A DNA stretch of 64,000 nt from Tribonema minus (Eukaryota > Sar > Xanthophyceae > Tribonematales > Tribonemataceae). A program made the position numbers and the translations under genes. Numbering within the stretch: position 1 is the stretch's first letter; each line of letters starts with the position of its first letter. The stretch lies in assembly GCA_017506865.1 (NCBI GenBank), contig JAFCMP010000002.1, positions 1,178,001 to 1,242,000 of the forward strand, given 5' to 3'. Shown here piece after piece: positions 11,101-51,162 of the stretch. The notes below the pieces were generated by a model. That model was not told the origin of the DNA, made no database searches, and was given only the letters and a program-made list of their open reading frames with translations.

Positions 11101-11412
11101 CGAAGCCGAGAAGAATGGTCTCCGAGTCGGCGCTGCAGCGGTCGAGAGACACGAATGCTATGTCCTTGACGTGGTTGACCCAGCCGCCGCTGTCGCTGTA
11201 TGTGTAGTGTCCGTCCTCTCGCCAGTTCACGCCGACGCCTGCTGAGGCGTGCCACGTGACAACTGTACAATTACGCGCAGCGCCGAGCATACATGATGCC
11301 GGTGCGATGCCATGCCATCTGAGCAAGTCATTAGCTGTACTAGTAGTTGCAGGAGAATGAGACGTGACTTCTATGCGCGATGTTCCTCTTTGTGCAAGAA
11401 AGAGTAGAATCG

Positions 11413-11570
11413 GGCGCAGGAATTGTGAGAAGTGGGGTGCGGGTTGGGTTGAAGCAGCTAGGGTTTACGTTAGCATGAAGCAGCTTGTGCAGGAACTGTG
11501 AGAAGTGGGGTGCGGGTCGGGTTGAACCAGCTAGGGTTTGCATTAGCATGAAGCAGCTTTGATTGTGTAG
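11413..11570. repeat. Two tandem ~80-bp units
   Basis: Two adjacent copies share GAGAAGTGGGGTGCGGG, GGTTGAA(G/C)CAGCTAGGG and TTAGCATGAAGCAGCTT. They lie in the exon A-B intron of family X copy 2. The right arm lacks the region because of its internal deletion. Confidence 0.6.
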
Positions 11571-12373: not shown

Positions 12374-12718
12374 ATGCCCAGCTACATGCAGTCAAAAGTA
12401 ATGCGACACTCACCTCACGGCGGCGCGGCGCTGGCAGCAGCGGCGGCGCGCCGGCAGCAGTGGCGGCAGCTCAACCTTGACTTCAGTGACGTGCTACCCC
12501 CCTCAAACACCGCATCGACTTCCGTGGCACAGCGCTGTGGCGTCACTAACGCAGGATATAAGCGTAACTGCGCTGCCGTCGGCGGAGTGCGCGCGGTGAC
12601 AGCAACAGTTGCACAGCGCGCAGCGGGAGTGGCAGCTCAGCGAAGCTGCCCATTGGCGCAATTTATTGGGGGTTTTCAATTCACGCAATCAGGCACTGCA
12701 ACTGGCACTGCACACTAG
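12374..12718 (+). CDS. Hypothetical ORF, frame largely kept in both duplication arms (low confidence)
   Basis: This 114-residue frame begins MPSYMQSKVMRH and contains SVAQRCGVTNAG, PLAQFIGGF and TQSGTATGTA. The matching place in the right arm (47808-48125, minus) keeps the same frame over most of its length, with SVAQRCGVTNAG, PLAQFVGVF and AQSGTATGTA, and an in-frame length difference near the middle. However, the right copy has TGA right after MQSKVM. It lies upstream of, and divergent from, family X copy 2. It may be a small gene or a frame kept open by high GC. No domain recognised. Confidence 0.25.
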   Translation: MPSYMQSKVMRHSPHGGAALAAAAARRQQWRQLNLDFSDVLPPSNTASTSVAQRCGVTNAGYKRNCAAVGGVRAVTATVAQRAAGVAAQRSCPLAQFIGGFQFTQSGTATGTAH

Positions 12719-13216
12719 GATACCTGGTTAGCAGGCTGAGATCATTTTTCATGGTGCCTGAAAGTTAGCAGAAGAACTGTAATCTCTTCAGCATCACGCG
12801 GCCTCGATTAGCGTCTCATGCTTTCGGTTGGCCTGGCTGTTTTACCTCTGGCACGGTGGTGAGCTGCAGCATGCGCTCTCAAGTGGCAAGGCGTATTCGG
12901 GCGGCTGCGAGCATGAACTCTGCAAGTGCCAATGTGCGCAGCTGAACATCCAGTGCAACACGCAAGCTGCCTGTACACCATAGTGTACAAGTAATCATGC
13001 ACGGCGACCATACTCACAGACTGTCGCAGCACCACACAGCGCGAATGACACACAAGCGTCATGTGTTATGCCCTGTACATTTACGTTTGCCCTGCGCACA
13101 GGCCGCTGGCCCGCTTACTACTGCCGAACACGCTGCCTCTGCAGAGCGATCTGCGACCAACTAGAGTACCACGGATCACTAGCATATAACAGAACTATCC
13201 ATGCTCGGGAGCAGGC

Positions 13217-13885
13217 TTAGCGCCTGCCGGGGGGCCGCTCCTCCCCCCTCCCCCTCCACCACAACCCCCCATGCCATACCCCCCCCCGCCGCCCCCCCAT
13301 CGAATAGCTCGGAGGCGCCATGAGCGTGGCTAGCGGATCAGGCGGCGCCATCAGCGCGGCAAGCGGATTGTGCACGGCAGCAGCAGCAGCGGCAGCAGCG
13401 CTCGGCGCGGGCTGCGGCGCCGCGGCGCTGCCGAGGCCGGTCGGCGGCGGACCCAGCGGCGCCGGCGGCGGCGCCGCCTCCTCCCCCGGGAACACCCAGC
13501 ACTTCTTGTCCTTGTCGTAGTACGCCTTCATGGACTCGCCCTCGTGCGCAATCTCCGCGTCCGGGTGTGTGAGCTTGCTGATGAAGCGCCGCAGCAACCC
13601 GCCGCCGCTGCTGCTCTCGCGCGGGTTGTTGCGCGGCGCCGTTACAGGCGGACTTGTACTAGTGCTGCCGCCGCTGCCGCTGCCGCCGCCGCCGCCGACA
13701 GAGCGTCCGCTGCCGAGCATCTGCAGCAGGCGCATGGAGCTGACGCGACGGGCAGCGCCGGGGGCGCTTGCGGGCGTGGAGTCGCTGCCGCCGTTGGCGT
13801 CGCCACCGCGTGCCGGCACTGCCGCCGCCGCGGCTGCAGCATTGGCCGCGTCCACAGCAGCGGCATCGGACAGGGTGGAAGCTTG
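13217..13885 (-). pseudogene. Truncated duplicate of Sec16 C-terminus
   Basis: The translation matches the end of the intact Sec16 gene at 46525-47287: GDANGGSDS, ASAPGAARRVSSM, the conserved LLRRFISKL motif and the YYDKDKKCWVFPGEEA block, then APLGPPPTGLGSAAAPQ. Similarity begins abruptly near 13885 inside the exon. After PPSYSMGG the frame shifts at a G-run, and the true C-terminal segment is shortened, so the frame closes early with EERPPGRR. No upstream Sec16 exons exist on this side. A clear partial pseudogene made by the inverted duplication. Confidence 0.85.
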
Positions 13886-20345: not shown

Positions 20346-23300
20346 TCAGGTCAGGTAGTTGGGCATGTCCTCGTCCGCCCACGCGTGCGCCTGCGCACCG
20401 GCGGCGGCGGCGGCTGCAGCGGGCCCCGCCGCCGCGTGCTCGCTGGCGTGCGTGACGTAGGCGGGGTCGACGGAGAGGGCGGCGTCAACTGCGCGCACGC
20501 GCGCCGCCAGCGCCAGCGTCGCCTTGAGCTCGCCCTGGCGGCAGCGGCACGCAGAGAGGGGTGCGGAGGGCTCGATGTTGAAGTTTATGGAGGCGATTTC
20601 GGGAACGTCGCGCGAGGTCGGGGCGCAAGAGGGCTCTAGGCACAGTTTGCACGATTTGGTTCTGATGTTGCATGCGTCAGGAAAGGGGGGGGGTGGCGGC
20701 GGGGGGGGGGGGCTGAGCACTGGGTGACGTGCGGCAGAACTGAGAAGGCTGCACGCCGTAGCAGCGGAGCGCTGCTTCAGGCTGCGTTGTACCCTGAGCG
20801 CGCTGCGGCGTGAGAGGCACGGGCAAAGCTCAAATTGCAAGGGCTGCGCGGAGCCCGGGCGCATGTGCGCGGACCATGGGAGCGGTGCTGAGCATTCGTT
20901 CCAGTACCATATAATTATAAAGCTCACACACGCAGCTGCGTCAGCCCTCCACGGTGTCCTGAAGGATATGCACTTTTAAACGATTGTACATGTGCACACA
21001 TGAATGTGCCCGCACATGCAGCCGTGCCAGCGCATTTGCAGTCGCCTCGTCCTCCGGCTGGCATCGCAAACAGTACTGCAACGTACTGCCAAGCTCAATG
21101 GCAGTCTAAGTTGTTGGTGATGACATCTGCATAATGTACCCACACACGCTCACACGCCAACAAGCACTCAAACAAGATAAATGCCTCAGGAGCATGCCTA
21201 ATCACATGCAAAATTGAACGCGCCCACACCTGCAGCCGCGCCAGCGCATCCACGGTGGCCTCGTCCTACGGCTAGCACCACAAACACAAATATACCCACA
21301 CATACTTCAAGTACTTCTGAAGTACATTATTTGTTACAAACGCTTCTTGATATACGTGATGTACATGTGCATACGCGAACATGCTCACACCTGCAGCCGC
21401 GCCAGCGCATCCGCAGTGGCCTCGTCCTCCGCTTCATCCGCAAAGTGCACGGTCGCGCTGCCGACGGAGCCACTTGGCAGGTGCTCTATCCTGGCGGTGA
21501 TCAACTTCAACTCCACCTGCGACGCACCCAGGGGGTTTACTGACGGGGTCATGATCATAACGTTATCATCGTCCGTATAGACCACTGACTTCACAATGAT
21601 CACAGTTGTTGCTGCCTTGACGGACTTGGCAGAGAGGAGTGCGTCGATGTCAATCTACAATGAGCGTAGTCACAACTGTTGAGGCAGTGATACGACAAGA
21701 AATACATACTTCAGAAGTACATTTTTCAATCTGTGATTTGTGGTTGAATTTCTGTACGTGACAAAAAGGACACAATCGAGATTATTAATGCTGAAGTCCA
21801 GCTGCTCGGGGCACAATGCGAGGGCTCATCACATCCCAAAAGGTGTCAACATGCGATGAGAAGGACGTGGCGGCAGTGCTCAACAGCGATCAGAGAAATG
21901 CGGTGACAGTGCTCAAGAGCGATGGGGCGAGTGCTGCTGAAGAGAGGCGCAGCGACAGTGCTCAAGAGAGATGTGGTCACGTTTGCTCTGAGGAGCTACG
22001 GTAGCAGTGCTCAAGAGAGATGAGACGCAGTGACAGCGCTCACGGGAGTCGCTGCAGCAGCGCTCAGAAAGCATACAATGCTCAGTGGCAGTGCTCAGGA
22101 AAAAAGGTGATGGCAGTGCTCAGATAGATATGGTGGAATAGCGCTCGAGAGAGACGCTGCAGCAGCGCTCAGCAGTTATGGCGACAGCGCTCAGAGAGGA
22201 CTGGTGACAGTGCTCACGAGTGATGTGGTGACAGCGCTCACCATGCGCAGGATGTGCGCAAGGCTAAACCATTGAAACAGGCCTATGCAGCTGCTGCAGT
22301 TGCAAGCCGCGCAAGCCAGCGGCCTCCGGAGTGAGGTCTTCCTGTTGCGACACCCTTGCAGCCTCACGCTGACCTGCTGCAGTACCGTAAATGCCCGAGT
22401 AAACGTCCCTCCGGGCGTGCAGATCTGGACCCTTGCATGGGCGTTTACATGGGGGGGGGGCGCCTGTGCAAGTGGGGGGGGGGGCTTAGCTGCTCCATTT
22501 TGAATTGCCAGCTAGCAGAGGGGGCGTTTACAAGAGGGAGGGGGCGTTTACTAGGGCCCGGAGGGAGCGTTTACAAGGGTCGAGCACAGAGTTGTGTGTG
22601 GCGATAACGGACATCTCTGATAACGGCAATGGCAGTGCTGGCGAAGCTGCAGCAGCTACGACAGCTCTTGTCAAGCGAGCATTGTTGCCTGTGTGGCCAT
22701 GCGTCGGCAGTTGAGAAGCGCTCACAGAACGATAAAGAGTTGTAGTTCGGCTTAATTCGTTATTTTCCGGCTCTTTTGCAAGCCCCGTGCCAACCTGCAG
22801 TCATTATGGTTGCTGCGGGGCGTTTACAGGGGGGGGGGGGGGGCGTTGTTGCCCACTTCGCCCTGGCAAGCACGCCCATGGGCGTTTGCAAGGGGGATGG
22901 GCCTGTACAGGGGGGGGGCGTTTACTCGGGCATTTACGGTAACTCGGAGATGCAGTGCTCACCATGCGCAGACAGATGCAATGGCAGCGCTCACAGAAAA
23001 GCCGTGGCCTACATAGAGATGTGATATCCACAGTGCTCAACAGAGACGCAGCAACAGCGCTCAGACAAATATGGTGACAGCGCTTATCAGAGATAATCGG
23101 TGACAATGCTCAGGTAGATGTTGTGTGATGTCGCTCACCATGCGCAGGATGTGCGCCTCCGCTTCTTTCGGGCCGGAGAGCCCCACCTTGGTCGCAATGT
23201 CCTGTAGCGCACCAGGACCAGCACGCAGGGGGTGGCATAAGCAGAAGGAATGAGCAGGATAAGTCCAGGGCCATCACTGCACGCCACTACTGCGCGCCAT

Positions 23301-26300
23301 GCCAGTAAGTGCCCATGGCAACGTCAGCTTGAGAATCTTGAAATCAAGTTTCGAACTAGAAAAAATGGATGAAATTGATGTCCGAAGTTTCATGCCGTGG
23401 GAGTGCAGGGCGCACTTAGACTAGGAGCAGATGGTTCGATCAGCATCAAATCCACCAGCACGCCTTGATTTTTTTAACCAGCTTCTTCCAAATATGCGCA
23501 CAACCAGCTTCTTCAAAATATGCGCGCTCTTGGACAGAGGCACAATGTAGGTACCAAGTTACCCCACCTGAATAACGCAGTAGCGGCTTACAGGGACGCC
23601 GCAGCATCAGCGCAAAAATTAAATGCCGGTAGCCTATGAGACGTCACAACACTGCAATGAATACCTTGCTGTATCGTTGAGTTCAACACAGCGCATTGTG
23701 CTGAAGTTACGTTCAACTTTGTGAACCAAGTACTCGAGTTCAGCACCACGCAACGAGGCCCATTAACACATATCGAGGGCACACGCACATACATGACAAG
23801 GGACCATTGAAGCGTACTTCAAGAGCACGATACCCTTGAAATGTGTGTACTTCAACTGTGAGTTAGCGCACACCGAGAGCGCGTCGCGGGAGGCAAGCGA
23901 AAGGCGGCCGTAGGCCGCAGACGACGGTGCAAATTGCCATGCGCAGCATTGTCTGAGAATTGCGGCTTGAACCTCAAGAAACAGCACGACTGCGCACGCG
24001 GGACGACAGCTGTCATGCGCTGAGCGCTGACGCACGTCAAAGACGCTGCATGAGCTGAGGTGGCGTTCTGAGAGTTCCAGACAATTGCAGTATAAGTAAG
24101 ACGCTACTCCTGTACTGTACGTGAACTTGCACCGCGCATTGTCTGTGAAGCAGCTGTAGGCACCCAGGCAGCTCTGTACCACGCTGTGTACGCCTGACGG
24201 GCTCACTTCATGTGTCAGAACAAATGCCACAACATTGATGTACTGAGTAAGCCCGCACTCAACTCCTTGAAAGCAACAAACGACAAGAGGTGGTGGCACC
24301 ATTGACAAGGTCCACACTGTCATGCTTGCCTGCGAGAGCTGGGGTGGCATGCTAGGCGCTCCGCCATGCTACAGCGTCACCGCAAACCTGAGTAACGTCA
24401 CACTCACTCAGTTTCTGCTGTTAACAACTTGTGTTGACACCCGTTGTCATTTAGCAACTGCTGCAGGCACGCTCCGTCCGCACCTGCAGCGACAGCGTAA
24501 TGTACGCCTGCGCGAGCCTGCAGAACCTTAGTCTAGTAGGGTTAGGGGTAGGGCTAGCGCGCTGGGGCCTCCGCAGCACCACCGAAACCCCCTAGTAACC
24601 TCACATTCACTCAGTTGCCGTATGTTATAGCAGCTTGTGTTGACATCAAGATGTCCATCTTTATAAAATCAGCTACTGCTGTAAGCATGCTCCGCCCGTA
24701 CCTGCAGCGACAGCGTGATGTACGCCTGCGTGAGCTGCAGGGCCTTGGTACCCTAACCCTTGCCCTCAAACCTCACCGTGACCTTTACCTAACACCAACC
24801 CCAAGTGCCACGACCTCCGCAGCGCTTTAAATTAGCAGCTGTTGTAGCCACGCTCCACCCATACCTGCAGTGACAGCGTGATGTACGCCTGCGTGAGCTG
24901 CAGGACCTTGCGCCCGACGCGCGCCGCCGCCGCCTGATTGGCCAGCCCCAGGTTGCCGTCCGCAGTCAGTTGGTCCCGCGCGGTGTGCACCGCGCGCGCC
25001 GCGGCTGCCACGTCGTCTCTCTCAAACGCATCGGCAATCGCTGCGGCAGGAACACGGGCAGAAAATTGTTGTAAGACTGCGGCAAGGAAGAACAACATTG
25101 TAGTAAATCGGTCGCATAAATGTACATCAAATGCATCAGCAATGTATTTGCACCAATATTAAAGTAGAAAGATGCATCAGCAGCAGCTGCCACGTCGTTT
25201 CTCTCAAACGCATCGGCAATCGCTGCGGCAGGAAAATGAGTAGGAAACCGTAGTGAGGTTGCGGCAAAGGGGGGATAATGAGGATAGGCCACCAATGTGT
25301 ATGTACCGTAAAGTACCGGGTAAACGACCCCCGGGTCTTGGCTGGCAGAGGGCTCTGGTGCCATAGACTCAGGGGTCGTTTACAGCGCAGGGGGCGTTTA
25401 CCAAGAGGGGGGGGCTTGAGCTGGCATAGATGCGCGCTGGCAAGCTGCGCGTGGCAAAACACCCGGGCTGTTTGCCATGCACGGGCTCTTAACCGATTGC
25501 ATCTCCGCAGAAAGTACTCACAGCATAGCCTGCAGCGCTGCGCTTTGATTTTCAAGAGATCTAACACGCCAGTGCCTGGCGTGAGGACCAGCACTATACG
25601 TACTGCAGTCTGTTGCTAACAGAAAGGCGCCGGCATTATTCTCGTGATGACACAAATAGATGGCCCTCTCGGGCGCAGGCCTGACAAGTCAAGCAAAGGC
25701 TGCAACTCAGTTACAGCCTACAGCAGAATCGTGAGGTCGGGTCCATCGTAGCGTGGTCTCCCTTCGCTTTTCTCTCTAAAACAAACTTCAACAACTTGAA
25801 GAAGGGTTTGGTTGTTTTGCCTATATTGCCCCACAAACCGTTTCAACTAGTATGACATGACACAAAAACTTCAACAACAACTTGAAGAAGGGTTTGAGGT
25901 TTGCAGCCAGTTGTCCCATCGAACCGTTTATACCCCGCAACAGTAGTATGACATGTCTGCATTTTAGGACAGCATGTGCTGAGGCCCAGTGATGAAACAT
26001 ACACACCCGTCCACACACATCATTCATGGTACTTTGAGCATAATTGTAGTGACATGGACATAGCTAATGACAAAAGCATCACGTGGCAAACCACCCCCGG
26101 GTCTTTTACCATGTAGGGGGGGCTCAAGGTGGCAGTGACCCCCTGGTGCTATAAGACCCGTGGGTCTTTTACAGCACAGGAGCTGTTTACCGCTAGGGGG
26201 CTGTTTACCCGGTACTTTACGGTATATGCAGTGCACCAGCAGTATACTTGAATTCAAATACGCACAGCATTCACATCGTCCCCGTCTCAAACACATTGGC

Positions 26301-29300
26301 AGTTGCTGCGGCAGAGCAAAATATAGGATTGTATTGTCATCAGTGTCTGGCAGGGTAGACGATGAGGCGATGCCATGAACGTGTACATCAGACATGCACA
26401 AAGCATACGTCCCGCACTTAAAGTACTCCATATGAAGCAAACAATTGCCGTCAGGCAGCGGCTGTGAGTACTAGAAACGCATCCGCCATAAATGCGGCAG
26501 GCTTTTTTTTTTTTTTTGCGCGTAACCAAAGATTACCCGAAAACTAGCTTGTCCAAGTGCGCAGCGGCGCTGCATGCGCGCTTGCGGCCGGTGCGATGCC
26601 GTTGCTGCGCTGCACTGCTAGTTCTGCCCGCCCAACCGTGCTCAGCAGACGCATCGTACCCAATGACCCAAGTCAATGCCGAGCGAACGGCTGCCGCGCA
26701 CTTGAGCACTGGCAACCAAATGAATGACTCGCGCGATTTTCGGCGCTGGCAGCTGACAGCTATTTGTGAACTCACACAAACTTAGGGTTAGGGTAAGGGT
26801 TAGCACCGCCGTAGTACGCGCTAGCGTGCGCAGTCATGGAGCGCACCGGCGCGAGCGCTCACACTATTAACAAAGCCTACAAGTAGCAAAATACGCAACT
26901 TGAGCATCACTCATGTACGCGCTGAGGTGCGTGTTCATGGGGCGCACCGGCGCCGGCGCAAGCGCTTTCGATTGTAGTGAATATACATTCAAGTACTACA
27001 AGTAACGAACTACGGAGTATGGCTATATGTCAACTGAGCGTCACCTTCGTACGCGCTGAGGTGCGTAGTCATGCAGCGGCGGGTACACATCCACAATAAC
27101 TTTAGCAACACACGCACACTGAGCATCACCTGTGTATGCGCTGAGGTGCGTGGTCATGGCGTGCGCCGGCGCAGGCGCATGCGCTTTCTAGTTGTACAAA
27201 TATATTATTTTTGAAAGAGAATTGAACAACATAGTATCATTATGAACAGCTTTCTAGCTGTACAAATATAGTATTGTTGAACGAGAAATGAACTACATGG
27301 TATGCTTATGAACAGACTGAACATCACCTATGTAAGCGCTGAGGTGCGTGGTCATGGAGCGCGCCGGCACGGGCATGTACGCTTTCTATAAGGAACAGAT
27401 CTACAATCAGCAACATATGCAAACTGAGCATCACCTATGTATGCGCTGAGGTGCGTGGTCATGGAGAGCGCCGGCGCGGGCGCGTACGCTTTCTATTGTA
27501 AGACTACATATTTTTTTGAAAAGAAATGAACTACTTGGTATGATCATGTACAGACTGAGCATCACCTGTGTACGCGAGGTGTGTGGTCATGGAGCGGTGG
27601 GTACGCTTTCTATAAGAGACAAATCTACAATTAGCGATGCACGGAAACTGAGCATCACCTGTGTACGCGCTGAGGTGCGTGGTCATGGAGCGTGCCGGCG
27701 CGGGCGCGTACGGCGGCAGCGGCGGCGCCTCCCCCAGCAGCAGCAGCGACACGAGCACCGCCTTCTTGCGCGACTCCACCGCCAGCGCGCTGCAGATGCA
27801 GAGCATGTGAGCATACTTCAGGCACGTGAAACAACGTCACGATTGGTTGATTGCTAAAAATATTCATGTGGGTGTCGTGGCGACTCCACCGCCAGCGCAC
27901 TGCAGGTGCAGAGCATGGCACGTACTTAAAACACGTAAAATGACGTCGCAGTTGGGAAATTGCGGCAGCGCGGCGGTCCGCGGCAGGAGGTTGGCACCCA
28001 TTGATCGCTGCCGGCACTAGTATGTCATGTATAGAGTGCTATGCAGCACCATTTATATGGCTAGTTTCGCCTTGAAGTGAGGGGGCTCGGGCAGTTAGGG
28101 TTACGGTTAGGGTTAGAGGTAGGGTCAGAGGCGTTGCGCGACTCCACCGCCAGCGCGCTGAAGGCGCAGAGGATGGCACGTGCACCCATGAAATTATGTC
28201 TTGTACACGTTGACATTCATGTTGGCATGCTGCAAATCATTCACGGGTGTGTCACGGCGGCGCTTCACTGGCAACTACTGGGGGAGGGGGGGGGGGGGAG
28301 GAGGGGGGGGGAGGAGGGGGGGGGTTGAGCGCAGTCAGTACCGCACAGTCGTCAAACACGTGAGATCATGTCGAGATCAGCAGTGTCGGCCTAATTGCGG
28401 CAGCGTTGCAGCCTGCGGCAGAGTTTTCGCATCCACTGACCGCTGCCGCCACTCGTATCTTGTGTATAGCATGGTATATATGTAGTGGCATAAGTATAGC
28501 TGGTTTCGCCTCAAAGTGAAGCGGAGCTTGGGTCAAAGCAGAGGCGCTGCGCGACTCCCCCGCCAGCGCGCTGCACATGCAGAAGATGGCGCGCGCGTCC
28601 AAGGAGACCTCATTGCGTAAATGTCATGTTGCGAATCATTCATGTGGGTGTCACGGCGGCGCTTCACTGACAGTTACGGGAGGGGGGGGGGGGGGGGGTC
28701 GAGCGCTACCAGCACCGCACACGCATCAAACACGTGAGATGACATCGAGATCGGTTAATTGCGGCAGCGTTCGTGTCATTGCGGCAGCGTTGCAGTATTG
28801 GTAATTGCGGATGTCAGAAACATGATGCTGAAACACTCTAAATGTCACTCGCAGCTAAGCCGGGGGGGGGGGGAGTACCGTAGTCCTGGACGCCAGGATC
28901 ATCATCATGACTCATCATGATGACTCACGATAAGGGTGCAGCATTAGGGTTTGGCTCTCGTGGTCTCCTGAGAGCACCTTTGTTTCCATGTGTGCTGGCA
29001 AGGTTTTGTTCCGAGGGCAGCGACTAGGGATATCTCTATCACTTACATATCGTGCACACCGCACACCTCCATAAATGAGCTGCGGGGGCAGGCGCCGTGC
29101 ATATGCGATTGGTGCAGGGTATGCATGTATACCATATGCACTGCATACCTACATACCTGAGCTGCTGGGCGGGCGTCGTGCACGCCATGTGGAAGAAGTC
29201 AAGCGCCATACGCCACTGCTTCACGCCTGGGGGAGGGGGTCGACCGCAGACAGCAAAGGCAGTGCTCAGGTGATGAGGCAGCTGGTTTCAGCGACGGGTA

Positions 29301-32300
29301 ACAACAGGTAATGCGGCAGTAGTTTCAGCAACGGGTAATGAGGCCACCGTCTCATTAACAGCGAGAAAAAAGCCAGCCGTGTCAGCAACAGGTAACAAGG
29401 CAGGATTTACACCAATAGGTAATGCAGCACCAGCTGTCAGCAACAGGTTATGAAGCAGCCAGTCCAGCAACAGGTAATGCGGCAGCCATCTCAGCAACAG
29501 GGCGGCCGTTTGAGCAAAGGTGATGCAGCAGCAGTTTCAGCAACGGGTGATGAGGCAGCCGCTTCCAGCAATGAGTAATGCGGCAGCCGATCCATTAAGT
29601 TGTAACGAGGCAGCCGTCTCAGCAACAGGTAGATGCAGCAGCATGAGGCAGCCACTTCAGCAGCAATGAGGCACCCAACTCAGCAACAGGTGATGAGGAG
29701 CATAGAGCTTTCTTCGCGACAAACAAGGGTATAATGAAGCCGCAAGTGGCGCCCCCGCTGATGCCGCCAGTCCTCAGCATTCACACCACAAGGGCGGCAG
29801 GTACGTCATACAACCTCATGAGCAGCTTGAAGTATACAGTGCCATTCTCGACGGACATTTGTGACAGCAGCTAAGGCGTGGGACGGCAACCAGTGGCTTG
29901 ATGACACAACCTTTGATGTACATTTGTGAGGCTTGTCGTGCCCTTGTGAATGTTTCAACTAACAAGTACACGTGCACCTTGAAGCAGACAATTCTCAAGC
30001 ACACCAGCGGGTGCGTTGCCGCATCGCGCACCGCTTTGAAGTACTGTACATCCATACGTCTTTACACAAACTCAGGCTGTTCTTTTCTACTTCACAAGTA
30101 CGCCTGCAAGTGCACTGCAGCAGCGCTCAGCGCACTCACCTATGCAGACAACGCCGGCGTAGTACAGGTAGCGCATGAGGTGGTGCGGCGTCAGCGCCGT
30201 CTTCTTCGGCAGCACCTGCGGCGGTGACAAGCGGCAGCGCCAGTTGCTGAAATCACGTCATAAGTGAGAAGATGGATACGGTATTTATTCAGGCCAGAGT
30301 ACGACACCCGCAGTACAGTCAAGTACACATCTGAACAGTACACAGTTGAAGTGTACGTCTGTCGTGCGCCGTCTTCTTTGGCAGCACCTGCCTGACCAGC
30401 GGCAGCGGCACTTGCTCAGCTCACGGTCATATTTCTTGAAGTATGTGAGAAGACGATGGGATACGAATTCACTCAGGCCAGAGTACGACAGCCGTAGTAC
30501 AGTGAGTACACGTCTGAACAGTGAAGTGTACTCTGCGCCGTCTTCTTTGGCAGCACCTGCGGCGGTGACAAGCGGCAGCGGCAGTTGCTCGGCTCTCGGT
30601 CGTTTGGATACGTATCCTTTCAGGCCAGAATATGAGGGCCGTAGTACAATGCAGTACACGTCTGAACAGTACACAGTTGAAGTGTACACGTCAGCGCCGT
30701 CTATTCTTCGGCAGCACCTGCGGCGGTGACAAGCGGCAGTGGCAGTTGCTCAGCTCATGTCATCATTTCATGAAACCTGCTTACACGACCTACTTGAACG
30801 CGCCTACAGACCTACACTGGAGAACCTCCCAGAACTAACACGAGTAACTCCACTGTGGTGAGAGCCTGTGGGTGTTTAGGTTTCATACTCCGACACTTCT
30901 TGAAATATGTGAGAAGACTATGATCGGATACGTAACCATCCAGGCCAGAGTACGACAGCCGTAGTACAGTGCAGTACACGTCTGAACAGTACAGAGCAAG
31001 TGCACGTCAGCGCCGCCTTCTTCGGCAGCACCTGGCGAGGGGGCGGGGGGGGGGGTGAAGAGCCGCAGCGGCTGACGTCACAGTGTGCATTGCGCTGCGC
31101 CTCCGCAATCAGCGTGTGCGCGTTTCACAGTACAAGTACATACCCCATGCGCACGGCAACAGCAGCGCCTTGCGAGGTCCCCTAGCGGACCGCTTCCACA
31201 GCGCTCAGCGGGGATGCTTCGCAAGCCAGCCAGCCCCCGCATGTGCACGCATCGAGCACGCGGCAGCGCTCCGCTTGGATGCCACGCTGCGCCCTTGAGC
31301 AGCCCCTGTATTGGCACGCTCGCGAGTATACCTACCTACATGCTCCCGCTCGCCAGGATGTCTGGCGCGCGACGCGTCGCCACGGCAGCGCTCGGCTTGC
31401 AACTGCTGCTGCATGATGCGAAAGTGAACGGGCTCGTGGAGGCGCTGAACAGCAGCGCCGACGAGTCTGTCTAACGTACCCACCCCACCCACCTAGCGAT
31501 GAGGGGCATAACAAGCGAGTGTGTACCCTCTGTATATGGAAGCATCTGGTTATGCATTCAGCACTCCGGGACATCCACGTCAACTGACCTGCTGAGCGCT
31601 GAGCAGCGATACTCGGCAAGCCTACCGTACCTACCTACGCCCCACGCATCTACGCACCTTGTACACCGGGTGCACCGCGAGAGCCGGCGTGCGTCGACGT
31701 GGCAGCGCTTCGCGTCAATGCAACAGCGCTCAGCGAACCAACCATACCTACCCTACGCCACACACACATACATACCTTGTACACGGGGTGCGCCGCGAGC
31801 CAGCGCGCGCCCACGTGGTAGCACTTAGCGCGTATGCAGCAGAAGGCTGCTGCTGCATGGGGAAGCAGCGCTCAGCACGCCTACCATACCTACCCAACAC
31901 AGATGCGCACCTTGTACACGGGGTGCGCCGCGAGCCAGCGCGCGCCGACGCGGTAGCACTTGGCGTGTATGCAGCAGCGCTCAGCACGCCAACCATATTT
32001 ACCCCATGCCACACATGCGCACCTTGTACACGGGGTGCGCCGCGAGCCAGCGCGCGCCGATGTGGTAGCACTTGGCGTGTATGCAGCAGCGCTCACAGCA
32101 GGCCAACCGTACCAACCCTACGTCACACATACATACCTTGTACACGGGGTGCGCCGCGAGCCAGCGCGCGCCGATGTGGTAGCACTTGGCGTGTATGCAG
32201 CACTCCAGCAGATCGGCGTCCACCGCCGTCAGGCAGCCGTCCTCTGGGGCCAGCGCCTCCGCGGCGCGCCACAGCGGCGCAATCGCGTCCTGCCATCAGG

Positions 32301-34574
32301 ATAATGTGCATTGACGTCGTGGTTTAGTGCGACTTGCAAGCGATAGTGTCAGCGTGAGGTGCGTGCGTGGGGCATGTGGCACACTGAGGAGGCTGCGTCA
32401 CCGCAGGCGCTTTTGCACAAGGGGAACTTTGGCGCCAGCGCCTCCGCGGCGCGCGCCACAGGCGGTGCTATTGCGTCCTGTCGTGAATCAGCAATCACCT
32501 CGTCTGGAGCGCACGACTGATTCAAGCGCGTGACGCACTGCGGGCCCTCCATGTTGGTGCTGAAAGCACTGCGCAACAAGCGCATTGAGCCATCTGTAGC
32601 TGAGCGCTGATGCCACCATTCGTGCAGTGCTGCTGCTACCACTCGCGCTGTGCTGCGTCACCTGAGCGGCGGACGCGGCGATGCACACTGCGGCGCAGTG
32701 GCGGCAACGAGCAAATCGATCAATTCTATTGAGCACTGCTGTTGCCCACTACCCTGATCAATCTCACCCACCATTAGTTCAATCTTCTCTGCTGTTGCCT
32801 CCATGCGCAGAATATCCAGTGCTCAGTCGCCTGAGCGGCGGACGCAGCGATGCACGCCGCAGCGTAGTGTCGGCAACGAGCAAATATGGCAATTCTGTTG
32901 AGCACTGCTGCTCCCATTTGCGCGCAGTGCTCAGTCACACCTGAGCGGCGGACGCGGAGATGCACGCTGCGGCGTAGTGGCGGCAACGAGCAACTTTAGC
33001 CATTCTGTTGAGCGCACGACTGGCTCAAGTGCGTGAGAGTCGATTTGAGACACTGCGGCCTCAGTACACTGGTCTACATGCGTCAGCGCTGAAACCCTTG
33101 CGCAACAAGCGAATGGAGCCATCTACTAGCTCAGCGATGCTGCCACCGTTCGTGCAGCGGTCAGTCACCTGAGCGGCGGACGCGGCGATGCACGCCGCAG
33201 AATAGTGGTGGCACACCGCCGCGAAGGGGCGGCACGCGGCGCGCGCCTGCGGGCCGATAGCGCTCAGCAGCATCTCCCGCGCGACGCCGCAGAACGCCGC
33301 GTCCGGCACCTTGTTGCCCGCCCCCGCGCACTGCACGCTCGCCTCGTTGTTCCTGCACGCGTGTGAAGCATTGTGGAAGTGCGCTGACTTCATGAGGAGG
33401 GCTGACAGAGGCGCACACATACGTGCATGGGCGCGGTGCATACAAAAGCCTGACGGAGGAGCGTTGTTCCTGTAAACACGTGCGTTTCATACAAAGATGC
33501 ACACTGCACGCTCACCTTCCTGTGCACACACGCATTAAACACGGTTGATATGGAGGACCGACAGGGGTGTTGTGTCAAGTGATCAACATGCCTGCTCCAC
33601 TGGCGCAGTAACCCAAAAAATACACCTCGCGTACTTTGACGCACTTTGGAGTGTACTCCAAAGTACACACGGCGTGAGACAGCGGCGGCACATCAGACTT
33701 TGGCAGGGCTGCCGCGATGTGTTGCGTCGCGCGTGAAGTGTGCAGGAGTGGCGTCATGATGCGGCTGCCAAGTACCGCGTTACCATTAGCAATGTCAACA
33801 GAGATCTGCCGCCTCGCGCTGCGCTGCCACTGTGTTGCTGGCACGAGAGTGGCAGCTGGACCAGTGAGTGCAGGCTGTGATGGTCAGTAGTGAGTGGTGC
33901 TGATCACCTGCACCGGTTTGAGGCTGGCTTGTGGCCCGGATGACCTGCTTCACTTACACAAAGGGTGGACAGTCAAAATGCATGTAGCAGTGATACTCTT
34001 TTGAAAACCCTGTGCTTCGAGATGGAATGGCGTCTGTCAGTGTGCTGACAGCATCCCGCAGAGATCGAGTCCTGTCATACCACCAATTCCATGATGCTTG
34101 TTCAATCCTCAGGTTCTCTGAGGCACTGTTCAACTGAAGCAGCTTTTGGAGTACGTCTTTCTTGGCAGCGTTCATGAGGCTGTGCATTGTGATCAAAAGC
34201 CTGCTGGATGCTGAACGCTGTGCCAATCATGAATCGACGCAATGACTCAGGCTGTTGACTTCAGCACATATTTCTTCACATGTCTACCATGGACGATCTA
34301 TGCTGCAGTGCTGCCAGATACAGACCTATGTACATGGGACACACAATGTGGAATGCACTCACAGGAAGTGACTAGCAGCCACAGTTCTGGCACGGATCGA
34401 AGCAACCTGCACCGCCATCTCGAGCAAGGGAGACTGTCCCTGGTGAGAAGCGTGGAAGGCGCGAGCAGCATCTTGCATTTGACCATGCTGCCTGAAGAGC
34501 TGATCGCTTAGACCAGTCAGGCCCTCCTCGCTGAAGTTGTTGTGTCCCGACACGGTCCGCAGGATGGCATCCAT
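20346..34574 (-). CDS. CSN3: COP9 signalosome subunit 3
   Basis: PCI-domain subunit of the COP9 signalosome, which removes NEDD8 from cullins. Exons (minus): 34407-34574, one unresolved, 33169-33352, 32137-32289, 30140-30215, 29157-29226, 27659-27789, 24865-25040, 23139-23201, 21391-21654, 20346-20534. Phases agree from the third exon to the stop; the missing second exon must have a length of 3n+2. Family matches in order: CRPFAAVCHHY, LECCIHAKCYHIG, MRYLYYAGVVCIGVKQW, ALAVESRKKAVLVSLLLLG, ADGNLGLANQ, LQLTQAYITLSLQDIATKV, GPKEAEAHILRMI, and AVDAALSVDPAYV near the end. The product is slightly longer than the ~425 aa of plant and animal CSN3. About 1.5 kb of coding sequence spans 14 kb because introns are filled with copies of exon edges and two inserted elements. 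Divergent from Sec16. Confidence 0.92.
21020..21285 (-). repeat. Two copies of the 3' edge of a CSN3 exon
   Basis: The end of the exon at 21391-21654 plus its donor (CGGCTGCAG|GTGTG on the minus strand) recurs at about 21022-21065 and 21230-21280, including the codons for ATADALARLQ with substitutions. Both lie in the intron to the last exon. Confidence 0.8.
21830..23135 (-). repeat. Degenerate minisatellite built from a splice donor
   Basis: On the minus strand this intron holds several dozen irregular copies of a ~20-30 bp unit around GTGAGC(G/A)CTGTC(A/G)CC. The best copies read CCTGCGCATG|GTGAGCGCTG (about 22230-22260), which is the end of exon 23139-23201 and its donor. The array is interrupted by the element at 22383-22941. 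It appears to be an overgrown version of the exon-edge duplications seen at the other exons. Confidence 0.65.
22383..22941. mobile_element. 559-bp element with 23-bp terminal inverted repeats
   Basis: Both ends read TACCGTAAATGCCCGAGTAA followed by ACG, inverted and perfect. Inside are repeated GGGCGTTTAC boxes and long G-runs. No open frame resembling a transposase is seen, so it looks like a MITE-type non-autonomous element. If the outer TA is the target duplication, the element proper starts CCGTAAA. It is inserted in a CSN3 intron. Confidence 0.75.
24470..24760 (-). repeat. Copies of the 3' edge of CSN3 exon 24865-25040
   Basis: The exon end coding for ...LTQAYITLSLQ and its donor recurs at about 24690-24760 and, less completely, 24470-24525 (shared ACCTGCAGCGACAGCGTGATG-like core on the plus strand). 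Confidence 0.75.
25180..26320 (-). repeat. Copies of the 5' edge of CSN3 exon 24865-25040
   Basis: The acceptor and first codons (GCCGCAG|CGATTGCCGATGCG and the AFERDD codons) recur at about 25180-25235 and 26262-26315. The two copies flank the inverted-repeat element at 25304-26224. Confidence 0.75.
25304..26224. mobile_element. 921-bp element with 22-bp terminal inverted repeats
   Basis: The ends are perfect inverted copies of TACCGTAAAGTACCGGGT plus AAAC, and both flanks read TATG (25300-25303 and 26225-26228), a possible 4-bp target duplication (or TA). It shares the outer TACCGTAAA and the GTAAAC box with the element at 22383-22941, so the two form one family. No transposase frame is apparent. 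It lies in a CSN3 intron. Confidence 0.75.
26805..27658 (-). repeat. About seven tandem copies of a CSN3 exon 3' edge
   Basis: The end of exon 27659-27789 (codons for RSMTTHLSAYT) and its donor region CAG|GTGATGCTCAG recur at roughly 26815, 26910, 27050, 27125, 27330, 27430 and 27560, at irregular 70-200 base spacing and separated by AT-rich sequence. Copies keep the CATGACCACGCACCTCAGCG core (minus strand) and usually the GT donor. Confidence 0.85.
27870..28600 (-). repeat. Three copies of the 5' edge of CSN3 exon 27659-27789
   Basis: The acceptor and first codons (TGCAG|CGCGCTGGCGGTGGAG on the minus strand, coding ALAVESR) recur at about 27878-27915, 28135-28175 and 28550-28590. G-rich runs at 28280-28325 and 28680-28700 interrupt the intron. 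Confidence 0.8.
29245..29710. repeat. Minisatellite, ~26-30 bp units
   Basis: Tandem units of the form GCAGCCGTCTCAGCAACAGG followed by TAATG or TGATGAG, about fifteen copies with point changes. Located in the CSN3 intron just upstream (in gene direction) of exon 29157-29226. A shorter copy of that exon's 3' edge lies at about 29060-29110. Confidence 0.75.
30340..31045 (-). repeat. Four copies of the 5' edge of CSN3 exon 30140-30215
   Basis: The acceptor and first codons (CCGCAG|GTGCTGCCGAAGAAG on the minus strand, LPKK) recur at about 30365-30410, 30535-30590, 30690-30745 and 31005-31040, in ~150-320 base units that also contain shared intron sequence (AGTACACGTCTGAACAGTAC, ATACGTA, CAGGCCAGAGTACGA). 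Confidence 0.85.
31640..32136 (-). repeat. Tandem copies of the 3' edge of CSN3 exon 32137-32289
   Basis: The exon end (codons for CIHAKCYHIGARWLAAHPVYK) and donor AAG|GTATG or AAG|GTGCGC recur at about 31655-31740, 31775-31835, 31905-31985 and 32018-32095, in ~110-130 base units. A further diverged trace is near 31130-31210. Confidence 0.85.
32425..33000 (-). repeat. Copies of exon edges on both sides of a CSN3 intron
   Basis: The 5' edge of exon 32137-32289 (GACAG|GACGCAATAGCACCGCC on the minus strand) recurs once at about 32427-32480. The 3' edge of exon 33169-33352 (SAACIAASAAQ codons plus the CAG|GTGA donor) recurs at about 32660-32715, 32822-32880 and 32937-32995. Confidence 0.85.
33353..34406 (-). 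other. CSN3 region that must contain the unresolved second exon
   Basis: The first exon ends in phase 0 and the third starts needing two bases, so at least one exon of length 3n+2 should lie here. Candidates on the minus strand are a segment near 33640-33725 (GGCAG acceptor, GAG|GTGTAT donor) and the open frame at 33954-34226 (MHSLMNAAKKDVLQ). Neither shows clear family similarity. Confidence 0.4.
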
Positions 34575-36229: not shown

Positions 36230-39200
36230 AATGGCGCGAGGAAGTACACGACTCTTACGGCGCAGGTGACAGGGCGGCTTCCCACAGCTGGGCAGATCCT
36301 TTCGGTGGAAGTTCTAGGGAAGCAGTCAGCAGCACGCTTGCCTCGGCTGGGGAGCCAGCCGACGACAATGGCGGAACAGAAAGACCTGCGTCACAGGCTG
36401 AACCTGATGCTTGGCGCGAAGAGCTGCCGGCCAACAATGGCAGCTCCAGCAGCGGCGCGTTGCACGGCTGGAGCGGCGGCGGTGGCGCTGATGGTGCTAG
36501 CGGCACTGGCGCGCTGCCAGCGCCGCACGGCGCGTGGCGCGACAAGCCCGAGGACATGTTCGGCAGAGCCAGCCGCAGTGCTTCGTCAGCGGCTGCACGT
36601 GAAAGCAGCAGCGCTCATCCCGCCGCCGCCGGCGCCGCGCCCGCTGGTGACAGCACCACATCTCGCGCAGAGCCGGAGGAGAAGGCGGCTGCTGCGACGA
36701 CTCAGCTCACAAGCGCAGCGCGCAGCGCAGTCACTGACGATGCAGACCGCAGTGACAGCAGCGCTCAACGAGGCGATGACGATGCATCGGACACGTTCGG
36801 TCGCGCCAACAGGAGCTCTTTTGGAGTCGGCGGCGGCTGGAGCGGCGAGGAGGGCAGCAGCGCTCAGGCGCAGCATGGCTCAGCTGCAGCTGCGTTCGGC
36901 GACAGCAGCAGCGCCGCAGCGTCGCTGCTGCCGCCTACGGAGCTGTGGCAGCAGCAGTATGGGGGGTATGCGGGGGGCGGCGAGACAGGGGGGACTGGCG
37001 GGGGTCTTGAGACAGCGGCAGCTGCAGGGAAGGAGCACACGGCGCGGCACTCGCCGCACGCGTCACTGCCTGCAGGTACGAACGAGCATTGGTCAAATTA
37101 TACTTCAACTTGTGTAAGCACGCAAGGTGGGGAGATTGCTGCGTCCCGATGTAGTTTTTATAGCAATCAGCAAGCAACCTGATATGTCATAGCAGAGTTA
37201 CCGGACCGTAACATTTGCGCCGCAGCACTTGCAGGCAGTCAGCGTCTGCACATGACAGCCATTGCTCTGTGCTATATTGCCCGAGCGTAGTTGCGCATCT
37301 GAGGTGTGATCCACACAGACACATGAATAATCAATGAGCTCCGCATCCCTTAGCACCATATTGCGTCTCATATGTGTCATTCCCGCCCCTTTTCACACAC
37401 CACACGGAACAGCGGGGCCGCCTATGCCTCCACCGCCGATGTCAGCGCCGTTGCCGCCGCCATCCGTAGCGTTCGGACCCCCACCCGGTGGACGGTTGCC
37501 TGGCGCCAGCAGCAGCAGCACTGCCCGCGGCGTCAGCTCAGCATATGCGCTGTACCCAGACCCGGCGGCGCTGCCTGGTGCTGCGGTGGGTGATACTGGC
37601 GTGGCGGGTGGTTATGCGCTGTACGCGCCGCCGCCGCTGCCGCAGCAACAGCAGCAGCATGTCTCGAGCGGCAGCGCACCACCACATGTGACCATCAATT
37701 CGCCGCCACCGCCGGAGCGCATACACGTGGCGCCGCCGCCGTCAATCTACGCGGCGCAGACACATTGCACAGACAGTACACAAGGCCTCGCCTTTTACGG
37801 CAGTGGCTCGCCACCCAGCAGCGCCCAGGTGGCGCCTGCCGCTGCTGCTGCCGCCGCCGCCACTGCAACCGCTGCCTCTCTGACAGCTCAGGCGGCGGCA
37901 GCAGCGGCGGCGGTGTCTGCGGACAGCACGCCGCGCGGCAGCGACGTTGTCACGCCGAGCTCTGCTGCCGCGAGCAGACGGTCTACGACGCCCCGCAGCC
38001 CGCTACAGTCGGCTCAAACGGCGGCGGCGGTGGCATCAGCGGGCAGCACGCCGCGTGCGCAGCACGGCGGCGGCGCCGCCACGCCGGACTCCGCTGCGGC
38101 GAGCAGGGGCTCCACAACGCCGCGCAGCCCACTGGCGTCCGCCGCCTCTGGCAGCGTGCTCAACTCGCCGTCGCCGCCGCCGCCGTGGGCTGCTGCGGCG
38201 GCGTCGCCGTTCGCGCCGGGGCCGCAGATCGGTTCGCCGGGCGCCGCGAGCGCGTCGTCGCCGCCTGTCTCCGGCAGGTTCGAGCTGCTCGCGGCGGCGG
38301 CAGCGGCGCGCGCGTGCGGCGGCGCCGCGGACGCAGCTGCAGCGCGCAGCGGCGGCGGCGGCGATGGGGAACGCGAGCAGGGCGGCGGCGGGTGGGGGTC
38401 TGATGGGGAGGGGGACGGCAGCGGCGATGACGTCGCGTCTGCGCAGGCGACGCTGGCGGAGAGCTCATACCTGGGGTCGCTGCCGCGCACGCCGGATCCC
38501 TCGGTGAGCGGCGGCGGCGCCGGCGCCGGCAGCGCGCTGTCCCCCTGCAGCAGCGCGGGGCGCTACTCGGATGCGGCGGCGTCGCCGGGCGCTGGCTGCG
38601 GTGGCCACGAGCCATCGCTGCTGCGGTCGGCTGCGGAGCGCGGCGGGCGCAGCCGTGACGGCGGCGGCAGCGGCAGCGCGGCATCGAGCGCGTCGCCGGC
38701 CGCATCTGCTGCCAGGGCGGCAGCGGTCGGTGGTGCTTGGCATGCGGATGCGGGGCAGGGTGCGGGAGGGGACACCAGCCCTTCGTCTGCGGCAGCAGGG
38801 GTGCAGGCAGCAGCACAGGCGCCGCGTGCGTCGCCGGAGACGAGCGCGGCGGCGCACACGCGCACGCAGGAGCTGTCGCCACGTGCTGCTCTTGGCGCTG
38901 AGCAGCAGCAGCCGCAGCAGCGAGAGGCGGCGCAGAGCGGCGCTGCTGGCTCGCCGGCAGGGGCTGCTGCAGGCGCTTGGGAGTTTGATGACGACGACAT
39001 GGATGACCTGCGGCAGCAGTTGCCGCGTGCAGTTGCGCAGTTGCCATCTGCAGCTCCGTCGGCCGCTCCCACGGTGCAGCCGGCGGCAGAGCGCGGAACG
39101 CCCAAAACGCAAGCGGCGGCAGGACCGGCGGTGGGTGAAGGCGACGCGTCATATGCTGATGCTGCCGGCACGGCGCCCGCAGGGCCGCGTGCAGCAGCAC

Positions 39201-42200
39201 TCGCCAGCGGCGCCTCAAGGGCTGGCGATATCATTTGTGAGGAGCGCGAGGAGGAGCAAGCGAGTCACAGCTCAGCAGCAGCGCCCAACCGCTACCCTGC
39301 AGACGCGGCGCCACCAGTCCCCGCTGCCGTCAATGGCGTTGTTCCGCAGGATGCAGACCTGCATACCCCTGCCGCCGCTGCGGCGCTGCTGCCGCTGGTG
39401 CCGCCACCTGTGGACACGTCGCGTGGGCCGCCGCCGTCATGGGGGGTGCCGTCGCCGCCGCAGCAGCTGCGGCAGCAGCAGCAGCAGCAGCAGCCTGTGC
39501 GCCGCCAGCCGCAGCATGACGGTGCACGCAGCACCGATGACAGCGCTCCTGACGATGAGCGGCTGCCGCAGCGGCAGCAGTTTGACGGTCCGCCGCTGCC
39601 ACAAGGTGTGCCTCAACACCCTGGGCAACAGCAGCAGCGCTCGCCGCCGCCGTTTGCCGGTGAAAGTGCTGGCAGCCTGCAGCAGCAGCAGCAGCACCAT
39701 TCGCAACCGCCACGGCAGCAGCAGCAGCAGCAGTGGCGGTCGCCGCCTGCCGCGGGCGGCGCTCGCGGGCCGCCGCCGCAGCAGCAGCAGCAGCGGCAGA
39801 TGCCATCGTCGCCCTTGCGGCGCAGTGGCAGCGGCGGCGCGCCGCCGCAGAACGGTCCGCAGCACGGTCCGCCGATAAACGCGCAGATCGCTTTCGCTAA
39901 TCCCGGGGCGGGCGGAGCGCTGAAGCGGTCGCCGCCGCGCCGCGGCGGGCCGGTGCCGCCAGGAGGCGTGCAGCTGTCGCTGCAGAGGTATGTATGTATG
40001 GCGCGCTCTCGCTGTTGCTGGCAGGCCTGGCTCAGCCCTAGTGCGCTGTGCCTACGGCGCTTTCAGTTCAGATGGCAGAAGTGTGGGAGCTTGCCCGCTG
40101 GCGTCGATGGCGGACGCCGCCAAACGACCTCCGTTTGTATGTCGGCAGGCCCCTCGCACCTGCGGCTGTGTCTCTTCTCACACCATCTCGCTTCATCGCT
40201 GCATAGTCACATCCTTTGAATGGAAAGTCTATCAATGCATTGCCGTGTCGCGTCCGTGCGCTTCAGGCGCAGCATTGCTCATACGCAGTACGCGGCAGCC
40301 AGTAAGCAATTGTCCTCACGTGTCTCCGCCACATGTCGCGTGCACCCGTGCAGATCGCCTCCCGGCATGCAGCAGGGCGGCGCGCCCAGCGTCCAACGCG
40401 TGTCGCCGCCGCTCGGCGCTGTGCTGACCGCTGCACAGCAGCAGCAGCAGCAGCGCCCCGATGGTAGCAGCAGCGCGCCGCCACGCTCAGCTGCGTCGCC
40501 AGCGGGCCCATGCGGCCCGCCGCCGCAGCAGCAGCAGCCACGGCCCATGCAGCAGCAGCAGCAGCAGCGATCGCCTCCGGCAGGCTTCTACGACCCACCA
40601 ATGCGGCAGCAGAGCGCGCCACCGCAGCACCTGCAGCAGCTGCAGCAGCAGCAGCATACACCTTCGGCTGGCTCTCACGGTGCAGCGCTTGGACAGCAAA
40701 CGGTGCCGCCAGCGCAGCAGCAGATGCAGCTTCGCCGCTCGCCAGCCGCCGGTGCCTACGATAGCACTGCTGCGCAGCAGCAGCCGCGCATGACTTCCGC
40801 TGGCGCTGCTGATCCTGCGCAGCAGCAGCAGAGGGCGCCTTCGCTGCAGCAACAGGCGCAGCGATCGCCTGCCGCTGGTGCCTTTGGCCCCCCCACACAG
40901 CAGCAGCAGCAGCCGCAGCGGCGCCCGCAGGCATCGCCGCAACAGCAGCGCCAGTATCAGGCGCCACCCGGCATGCGTCGGCACGACGCGCCGGCGCAGC
41001 TGCAGCGGTGCAGCCCGCCTGGGTCGGTGCTGCAGATGCGGCCGCCGCAGCAGCAGGGCGACGGCAGGCCAATCCAGCAGCAGCAGCAGCAGCAGCAGCG
41101 CCCGCAGCAACAAGGCATGTCGCCGACAGAATACGTGGGCGTTGATCGGCAGCAGCGCCTGCAAGGCAGCGCGTTTCCTGTACAGCAACGCTCAGCTGAA
41201 AGTGATCAGCAGCAGCGCCGCCCATCGCCCTCGCCGCTGCCTCAGCAGCAGCAGCAGCAGCAGGCGAGCAAGGGGTTGCTGCCGCCTCAGCAGCTTCTGC
41301 GCCAGCCGCCGCAGCCGCGCATGCCGCCAGCACAGCAGCAGCAGCGTGTAGCGCCTGACGACATGCCCGCCCCTCAGCAGCAGCAGCCGCAGCGGCAGAC
41401 GCGTGATGCGCCACAAGACGGCGAAGTCGCACCACAGACGCAACGACACCAAATGCCACTGCCCTCGCAGCAGCTGCCGCTGCAGCAGCAGCAGCGGCCC
41501 GGCGTCTCGCCGCCACCAGCACGTACTGTCCCGTCCTCGCCAAGCGCGCCTCTCGCGCCACAGGCGCAGCGGCCGCAGCAGCAGCAGCAGCGGATGCACC
41601 GCAGCCTGTCGCCGCCGCCGCAGCGTGCGCCACTTGCGCGGCAGCAGGAGCAGCAACCGCAGGATCGGCTTGACGCCCAGCAGCAGCGCCCACCTATGCA
41701 GGAGCTCCTGAGCAGCGACGGTAATGGCGGCGGCGCTGCGGGTCGCGCCATCAGCAGCAGCGGCAGAGCCGCCGCAGGCGCTGCTGCCGCCGGCCCTCAC
41801 GCAGCGTTGGGCCCCAGCGCGAGGTCTCGAGAGGCGTCGGCAGCGGCAGCAGCAGATCACCGCTCCCTGAGTACGGCTGGTGATGACGCGTGGGAGATGG
41901 TAACGCCGCCGCCGCGCCCGCTCTCACTCGACAGTGCGTCGGTCGGCAGCAGCAGCGGCGGGGGCCACGGCGCTGCCAGCGGCGGCGGCGGCGGAAGCGG
42001 AACTAGCAGCAGCAGCAGCCACGCGGCGCCGCAGGCCGCGGCGTCCGCTGACGTGCCGCTGGGAGCGCCGCCGATGGACATGTGGGGCAGCCCTGATGGC
42101 GGCGACGCCTTCGGCGCAGCGCCGTCGCAGCAAGCGTTTCCCCTTCATGCCGACGCGTACTCGTTTGGCGCGCCGGCGCCGGGAGGAGGGGCAGCGCCAA

Positions 42201-51147: not shown

Positions 51148-51162
51148 TACGACAAGTACTTG

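Follow-up and report, generated by a model that had tools for sequence, protein, structure and literature searches.

In the yellow-green alga Tribonema minus, the gene CSN3 lies on the minus strand of the 64,000-nucleotide stretch of DNA that was analysed (the window), and its introns hold copies of exon ends together with the adjoining splice sites. This raises the question of whether such copies are placed by a process directed at exon-intron junctions or are the by-product of something more general, and what becomes of the spare splice sites. A chain of nine exons (33352..20346, minus strand) is translated without an internal stop and matches solved CSN3 at E 4e-44, in keeping with the initial annotation of this DNA, which had considered the intact chain identifiable. 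The annotated T. minus protein P0001 includes the whole nine-exon chain, with extra pieces interspersed, while the transcript-derived protein P0002 of a close relative matches it at about 97%, from within exon 5 to the end. The exons are numbered by our own count, in which 33352-33169 is exon 3; P0001 reads into this exon from a start codon lying immediately 5′. Preceding exons were sought at the 5′ end of the gene (34574 to about 33354), and none was placed there. The true chain is as follows.

33169..33352, minus strand: exon 3, the first placeable exon (translation, CSN3 match, protein alignment)
32137..32289, minus strand: exon 4 (translation, protein alignment)
30140..30215, minus strand: exon 5 (translation, protein alignment)
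29157..29226, minus strand: exon 6, without edge copies at E<=1e-3 (translation, self-alignment)
27659..27789, minus strand: exon 7, copies of both ends (translation, self-alignment)
24865..25040, minus strand: exon 8, copies of both ends (translation, self-alignment)
23139..23201, minus strand: exon 9, donor edge copied (translation, self-alignment)
21391..21516, minus strand: exon 10, donor edge copied (translation, self-alignment)
20346..20534, minus strand: exon 11, including the stop codon (translation)

Self-alignment of the CSN3 region yielded 60 forward self-matches (E<=1e-3); 28 reach an exon edge and 32 do not. Ten of the 16 internal edges, distributed over seven of the nine exons, are copied into the adjoining intron; the donors of exons 3, 4, 7, 8, 9, and 10 and the acceptors of exons 4, 5, 7, and 8 are concerned. 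Each edge has from one to six or seven copies, and each copy joins the exon end and its splice site to an intron segment of variable length, the longest match per edge containing 18-66 exon bases. The description in the initial annotation of at least six affected exons, of one to about seven copies, and of repeats composed of exon end, splice site, and some intron is thereby borne out. The match at the exon 4 acceptor extends 3 bp only into the intron; if at least 5 bp are required on the intron side, 9 of the 16 edges remain. The copies, termed decoys in the following, and one further array are located at these positions.

32630..32985, minus strand: three exon 3 donor-edge decoys (exon-like parts 32985-32941, 32875-32831, and 32706-32662; one has GC, not GT; self-alignment)
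32427..32480, minus strand: exon 4 acceptor-edge decoy, intron side 3 bp only (self-alignment)
31632..32088, minus strand: four exon 4 donor-edge decoys (32088-32023, 31976-31911, 31841-31776, and 31725-31658), spaced by 112-135 bp (self-alignment)
30366..31034, minus strand: four exon 5 acceptor-edge decoys (exon-like starts 31031, 30717, 30556, and 30387; self-alignment)
29302..29698, minus strand: tandem array of a unit of about 27 bp in intron 5-6, without an exon edge (Tandem Repeats Finder, self-alignment)
27880..28583, minus strand: three exon 7 acceptor-edge decoys (near 28571, 28158, and 27900; self-alignment)
26800..27600, minus strand: six exon 7 donor-edge decoys (junctions 27566, 27435, 27328, 27130, 27045, and 26911) and a degraded seventh near 26810 (self-alignment)
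25180..25267, minus strand: exon 8 acceptor-edge decoy; a second, more diverged one is at 26314-26272 (self-alignment)
24448..24748, minus strand: two exon 8 donor-edge decoys (junctions 24702 and 24484; self-alignment)
22140..22259, minus strand: exon 9 donor-edge decoy, 897 bp off, with a terminal-inverted-repeat (TIR) element (22383-22941) between it and exon 9 (self-alignment)
20985..21270, minus strand: two exon 10 donor-edge decoys (junctions 21230 and 21016; self-alignment)

Local duplications account for about 45% of the CSN3 intron sequence. Block-shuffled window sequence gave zero local matches, and zero local inverted matches were found in the window pieces. Tandem Repeats Finder classes some of the arrays as ordinary tandem repeats (at exon 4, for example, 114 bp x 3), and to that extent they resemble intronic tandem repeats or minisatellites; they differ from these in that the repeated unit can take in coding sequence and a splice site, and in that many copies are too few or too diverged to be within reach of that program.

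The same pattern is found in genes other than CSN3 and is thus more general than had been seen in the first reading of this locus. The assembly comprises 158 Mb in 554 contigs, from which 20 loci of 10 kb were picked at regular intervals along four contigs, among them that of the window; owing to the regular spacing, this is a systematic and not a random sample. Local direct duplications cover on average 9.6% of these loci (median, 2.2%), compared with 0.5% for inverted duplications and 0 for shuffled sequence. Five GC-rich loci with many predicted coding segments (L012, L014, L016, L019, and L020; GC 0.60-0.65) have 0-1% local duplication, and four others (L009, L024, L025, and L027; GC 0.53-0.58) have 22-49%. 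At L028:8117-9046, an open coding frame contains a 117-bp unit in about eight copies; here the products of the same duplication process may have survived within an exon.

Among individual genes, 6 of the 12 edges are copied in the CNNM metal-transporter gene at L027, its exons being fixed by the annotated protein P0003 and the last one placed by similarity to the paralogue P0004; this locus is a biased pick, since it was chosen for its visible decoys. The chaperonin family, in contrast, was picked blind. Its 56 exon matches fall in ten loci, eight of which were analysed (C516 and C544 were left out, and C51 is partial). Edge copies occur in five of the eight chaperonin genes, one of the five qualifying by a single 21-bp match; they are frequent in the genes on C5, C51, and C135 and in one on C279, the other C279 gene being the one with the 21-bp match only. 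Variation between genes is strong, G4, G5, and G8 having no spanned edge, though one match in G4 comes within 3 bp of a donor. Among eight PCI-domain loci, copies of donor edges appear to be present in two (L002 and L005), as judged from exon ends read by eye, and a kinesin search (132 matches) gave overlapping query ranges from which exon ends seem to be doubled in a row on C511 and C246. Locus L006 was left unused as an apparent false family match.

In the pooled genes, 41 donor-edge matches lie downstream and 26 acceptor-edge matches upstream of the true exon, in the same intron, compared with 0 and 0 on the wrong side; a wrong-side match was counted from 10 bp on both sides of the junction, a right-side match from 10 bp on the exon side with 1 bp or more past the junction. 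These 67 matches sit at 30 distinct edges out of 84. Copies are direct and neighbouring, as expected of local tandem duplication, with a median spacing of 177 bp over the 132 nearest pairs at most 1000 bp apart (window included), the nearest copies lying mostly 60-400 bp apart with a mode at 100-160 bp (117/132 pairs). Locality extends to the sequences themselves, 155 of 160 duplication arms being without a match in the other sampled loci; a genome search with the CSN3 exon 4 unit returned five matches, all at CSN3.

Breakpoints and ages of the duplications could be approached through the more similar pairs. Among 40 listed pairs of at least 86% identity, five overlap by 1-3 bp and two are separated by 2-3 bp, which fits end joining and not recombination between repeats. 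In 17 of the same 40 pairs, 13-132 bp lie between the copies, with some of the gaps holding a further copy, and others of the non-abutting pairs are members of arrays; simple fill-in end joining may therefore not explain all cases. Young pairs are few (7/132 at an identity of at least 92.5%; mode, 80-85%), which suggests that duplication was probably commoner in the past, as a steady process with losses would leave most pairs young. Elsewhere in the window, 62927-63633 holds three copies of a 91-110 bp sequence that are 96-99% identical and separated by unrelated stretches; no match was obtained in Rfam and tRNA searches covering the window, this repeat included.

In line with the lengthening of introns suggested in the initial annotation, the duplicated fraction is 0.02 in introns below 400 bp (n = 9), compared with means of 0.27-0.38 above that length. 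Over all 42 introns, length and duplicated fraction are correlated with a Spearman coefficient of 0.62.

With regard to the fate of the decoys, divergence between true and decoy sequence is 0.086 in the exon parts and 0.185 in the intron parts. Substitutions between true exons and decoys are concentrated at the third codon position (68/1020, 57/1020, and 138/1016 at positions 1, 2, and 3, i.e., 0.067, 0.056, and 0.136; p = 2.7e-11). When changes were polarised at the 16 edges that have two or more decoys (54 decoys), those private to a single decoy were distributed almost evenly over the three positions (42/780, 37/784, and 52/783, or 0.054, 0.047, and 0.066; p = 0.24), compared with 1/229, 1/234, and 6/234 for those private to the true exon (p = 0.044). 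The contrast between the two classes is 6:2 versus 52:79, a Fisher p of 0.067 on few changes. The decoys thus look neutral, the overall pattern being that of one constrained exon with neutral copies. Divergence in the intron parts exceeds that at codon positions 1 and 2 about three-fold, against a simple expectation of two-fold; exon-to-decoy gene conversion or alignment effects may therefore also act. Coding constraint on the decoys themselves had been considered in view of the raw decoy-decoy divergence (0.166 in exon versus 0.362 in intron parts) and was rejected, as a limit to aligned homology cut these values to about 0.11 versus 0.16 and the polarised test gave no support.

Most decoys retain the dinucleotides of a splice site (GT in 36/40, AG in 25/26), as the initial annotation had supposed in speaking of decoy splice sites left behind. 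Mean site scores of true and decoy sites are 9.0 versus 7.6 for donors and 9.8 versus 7.6 for acceptors, the chaperonin true sites in this comparison having been chosen partly by score; the decoy reaches or exceeds the true score at 21/40 donors and 6/26 acceptors. As true sites outscore decoys on average, site strength may help in the choice between them. In both the CSN3 and the CNNM chain, the donor in use heads its series and the acceptor in use comes last, which is exactly what recognition of the exon as a unit would pick, while pairing across the intron would meet closer decoys on either side.

It remains to weigh what else could have produced these arrangements, beginning with a process that targets exon-intron junctions, for instance by transcription- or splicing-coupled breakage (R-loops, spliceosome stalling), and hence prefers edges. 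This was the first hypothesis. It was evaluated by asking how often edges, compared with points in introns of the same genes at least 50 bp from an exon, fall inside a duplication, and was dropped on the CSN3, CNNM, and pooled counts. The raw numbers partly lean towards the edges: in the pooled nine genes with 42 introns, 27/84 edges lie inside a local duplication versus 22.7 expected (gene G2 dropped out of this count with the exclusion of nine exon pairs whose family match had a gap), CNNM alone has 6/12 edges against an interior share of 0.27 (circular shift 0.10), and predicted exons of the 20 systematic loci have 15/68 spanned edges versus 7.1 expected. The pooled excess is, however, small, falls to 19/84 edges once at least 25 bp are required on the intron side, and is absent from the seven chaperonin genes taken alone (12/56 versus 12.6); CSN3 alone, with the exon 3 acceptor counted, has 9/17 edges against an interior share of 0.43 (circular shift 0.27). 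Moreover, exon parts diverge about half as fast as intron parts, which favours the detection of edge copies. The two-fold excess at predicted edges, of which three of the 15 come from a single 1-kb duplication in L024, is tentatively attributed to slower decay on the exon side, to decoys counted as exons, and to intergenic DNA in the control. Exon interiors are covered less than intron interiors (0.185 versus 0.427 in CSN3, 0.097 versus 0.265 in CNNM). Edges are thus caught about as often as points in the intron interior, which argues for a general process, and junction targeting is considered improbable. Of the earlier proposal that DNA is duplicated across exon-intron junctions, the crossing of junctions holds, and a process that copies edges as such is not supported (27/84 versus 22.7).

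That the copies are real alternative exons, or functional alternative or recursive splice sites, would agree with the retention of GT and AG in nearly all decoys and with P0001, the public CSN3 model, which contains seven decoy-matching pieces (three exon 4 ends, one exon 5 start, two exon 8 ends, and one exon 10 end) besides a further 30-residue insert. These pieces may, on the other hand, be the product of gene prediction alone. P0002, deduced from transcripts of a close relative whose own gene may lack decoys, has no decoy or inserted piece within its CSN3 match, nor is there one in the annotated CNNM protein P0003, and no other isoform protein was returned for a shorter query; the codon-position bias of decoy-private changes, by which coding constraint on a copy would be recognised, is not significant (p = 0.24). 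Alternative exons are therefore judged quite unlikely, more so than junction targeting. An artefact of assembly or sequencing has in its favour that a single assembly underlies the analysis, yet most copies differ from each other by 5-35%, each with its own indels, where mis-assembly would repeat near-identical sequence; divergence furthermore tracks codon positions, and the pattern is repeated on several contigs, which leaves very little room for this explanation. The lowest probability is assigned to a family of mobile elements or introners that carry or capture exon edges. Two TIR elements do lie in CSN3 introns (window 22383-22941 and 25298-26230), and 22 bases from the end of the first one occur 59 times in the genome (at most 1 mismatch), often forming inverted pairs at a distance of about 550-580 bp; the listed edge copies are nevertheless outside both elements by their coordinates. 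Introners are families common to different genes, inserting whole introns. They and the T. minus copies both alter intron content on a large scale, but such sharing of similar sequence among introns of different genes was not seen for 155 of the 160 arms, nor for the exon 4 unit, and within what was searched the copies match their own locus only.

The tandem geometry and locality of the copies, their link with intron length, and the lack of detectable edge targeting or of any sign of coding constraint on the decoys, all observed in the sampled genes, are best accounted for by many short local tandem duplications in T. minus genes that are blind to exon edges and filtered by selection, the edge copies being a by-product that persists as neutral decoys. 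A probability of about 0.82 is given to this reading. The starting lesion would be a staggered break that is filled in and end-joined. Duplications would concentrate in genes with introns longer than about 400 bp, leaving copies mostly 60-400 bp apart. Where a duplication extends from an exon into the next intron, the original exon would stay whole and a second exon tail with its donor would be placed downstream; where it extends from an intron into the next exon, a spare acceptor and exon head would be placed upstream. Some arrays would have been extended to about seven copies, presumably by slippage or unequal exchange. Duplications inside exons would mostly be purged, those that leave the exon intact would be tolerated, and most of the duplication would belong to an older wave. 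Splicing would ignore the decoys if the true exon is recognised as a unit, with use of the first donor after the true acceptor and of the last acceptor before the true donor.

Tandem duplication over an exon-intron boundary has already been described for potato RdRp (PMC4974935); the initial annotation had known of no named element class that behaves in this way. The cases in PMC3443670 and PMC4974935 are like those in T. minus in that a short tandem duplication within a gene takes its splice signals from the parent copy, the potato one spanning the intron-exon boundary; they are different in that a new intron and an altered mRNA resulted in one gene, whereas T. minus has intronic decoys, arrays, and several genes affected, though intron gain may have occurred here as well. 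According to a further report (PMC8355091), small tandem duplications arise when breaks with 3′ overhangs are filled in by CST and Pol alpha-primase and then end-joined. The products are similar to the abutting T. minus pairs (7/40), which are direct, head to tail, and share hardly any homology where they join; the density in T. minus, the preferred spacing of 100-160 bp, and the sequence lying between many copies may not be explained by that mechanism, and its operation in T. minus can be only suggested. The kind of event is thus known from single cases, while the amount of intron made and the load of competent decoys look unusual, judged within T. minus alone. Titles and abstract openings among the literature matches listed gave no account of T. 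minus introns or of genome-wide duplication of exon edges.

If the sampled rate holds (12/56 chaperonin edges; 27/84 with CSN3 and CNNM), thousands of natural decoy splice sites would be present genome-wide, and the choice of the spliceosome among near-equal sites would be testable without engineering, each decoy standing in its own exon context. The duplications would also constitute a countable route of intron growth. Decoys may mislead gene prediction, and in view of the seven decoy pieces in the public CSN3 model, internal repeats in predicted T. minus proteins need checking.

A second mark of this genome is the motif TTAGGG, which forms the terminal repeat at three of 16 contig ends examined and is also scattered internally. 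In 339 kb of sampled sequence, 56 clusters of short TTAGGG runs were counted versus 1.0 in shuffles, about one per 6 kb. The 10-base pieces of the six rotations occur 38-45 times each (same-composition hexamers: mean 1.3, maximum 6), and the 18-base form has 11,474 perfect genome hits, with telomere arrays and overlapping hits included, compared with 0 for a backward control. Interstitial runs in the window lie near 9224, 17354, 24538, 24751, 26782, 28107, and 50346. In primates and rodents, TTAGGG-type runs are reported to have been inserted during break repair (PMC7215372). Telomere-like repeats as a signature of duplication junctions were rejected, 17/56 being inside duplicated spans versus 16.8 expected and 20/51 within 40 bp of an arm end versus 15.7 expected. 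Since the runs are not clearly nearer to duplications than by chance, a common cause is only a possibility. It is conceivable, if on balance doubtful, that a lineage-wide wave of unusual break repair made both the short tandem duplications, which would supply much of the length of long introns and furnish between a fifth and a third of exon edges with competent decoys, and thousands of TTAGGG insertions, possibly via one telomere-end route (CST, Pol alpha-primase, telomerase) acting at internal breaks and tolerated by exon-unit recognition.

On a larger scale, the window contains three open frames at 37331-47287, two of them very long and GC-rich, with 962 and 1099 residues, and the third with 686. 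The CSN3 region is flanked by a large inverted duplication (2569-13882 and 46520-55887), the pieces of which are mostly 80-86% identical, with one 280-bp piece at 98.6%; sequence from the end of the open-frame region recurs in the inverted arm at 13.2-13.9 kb.
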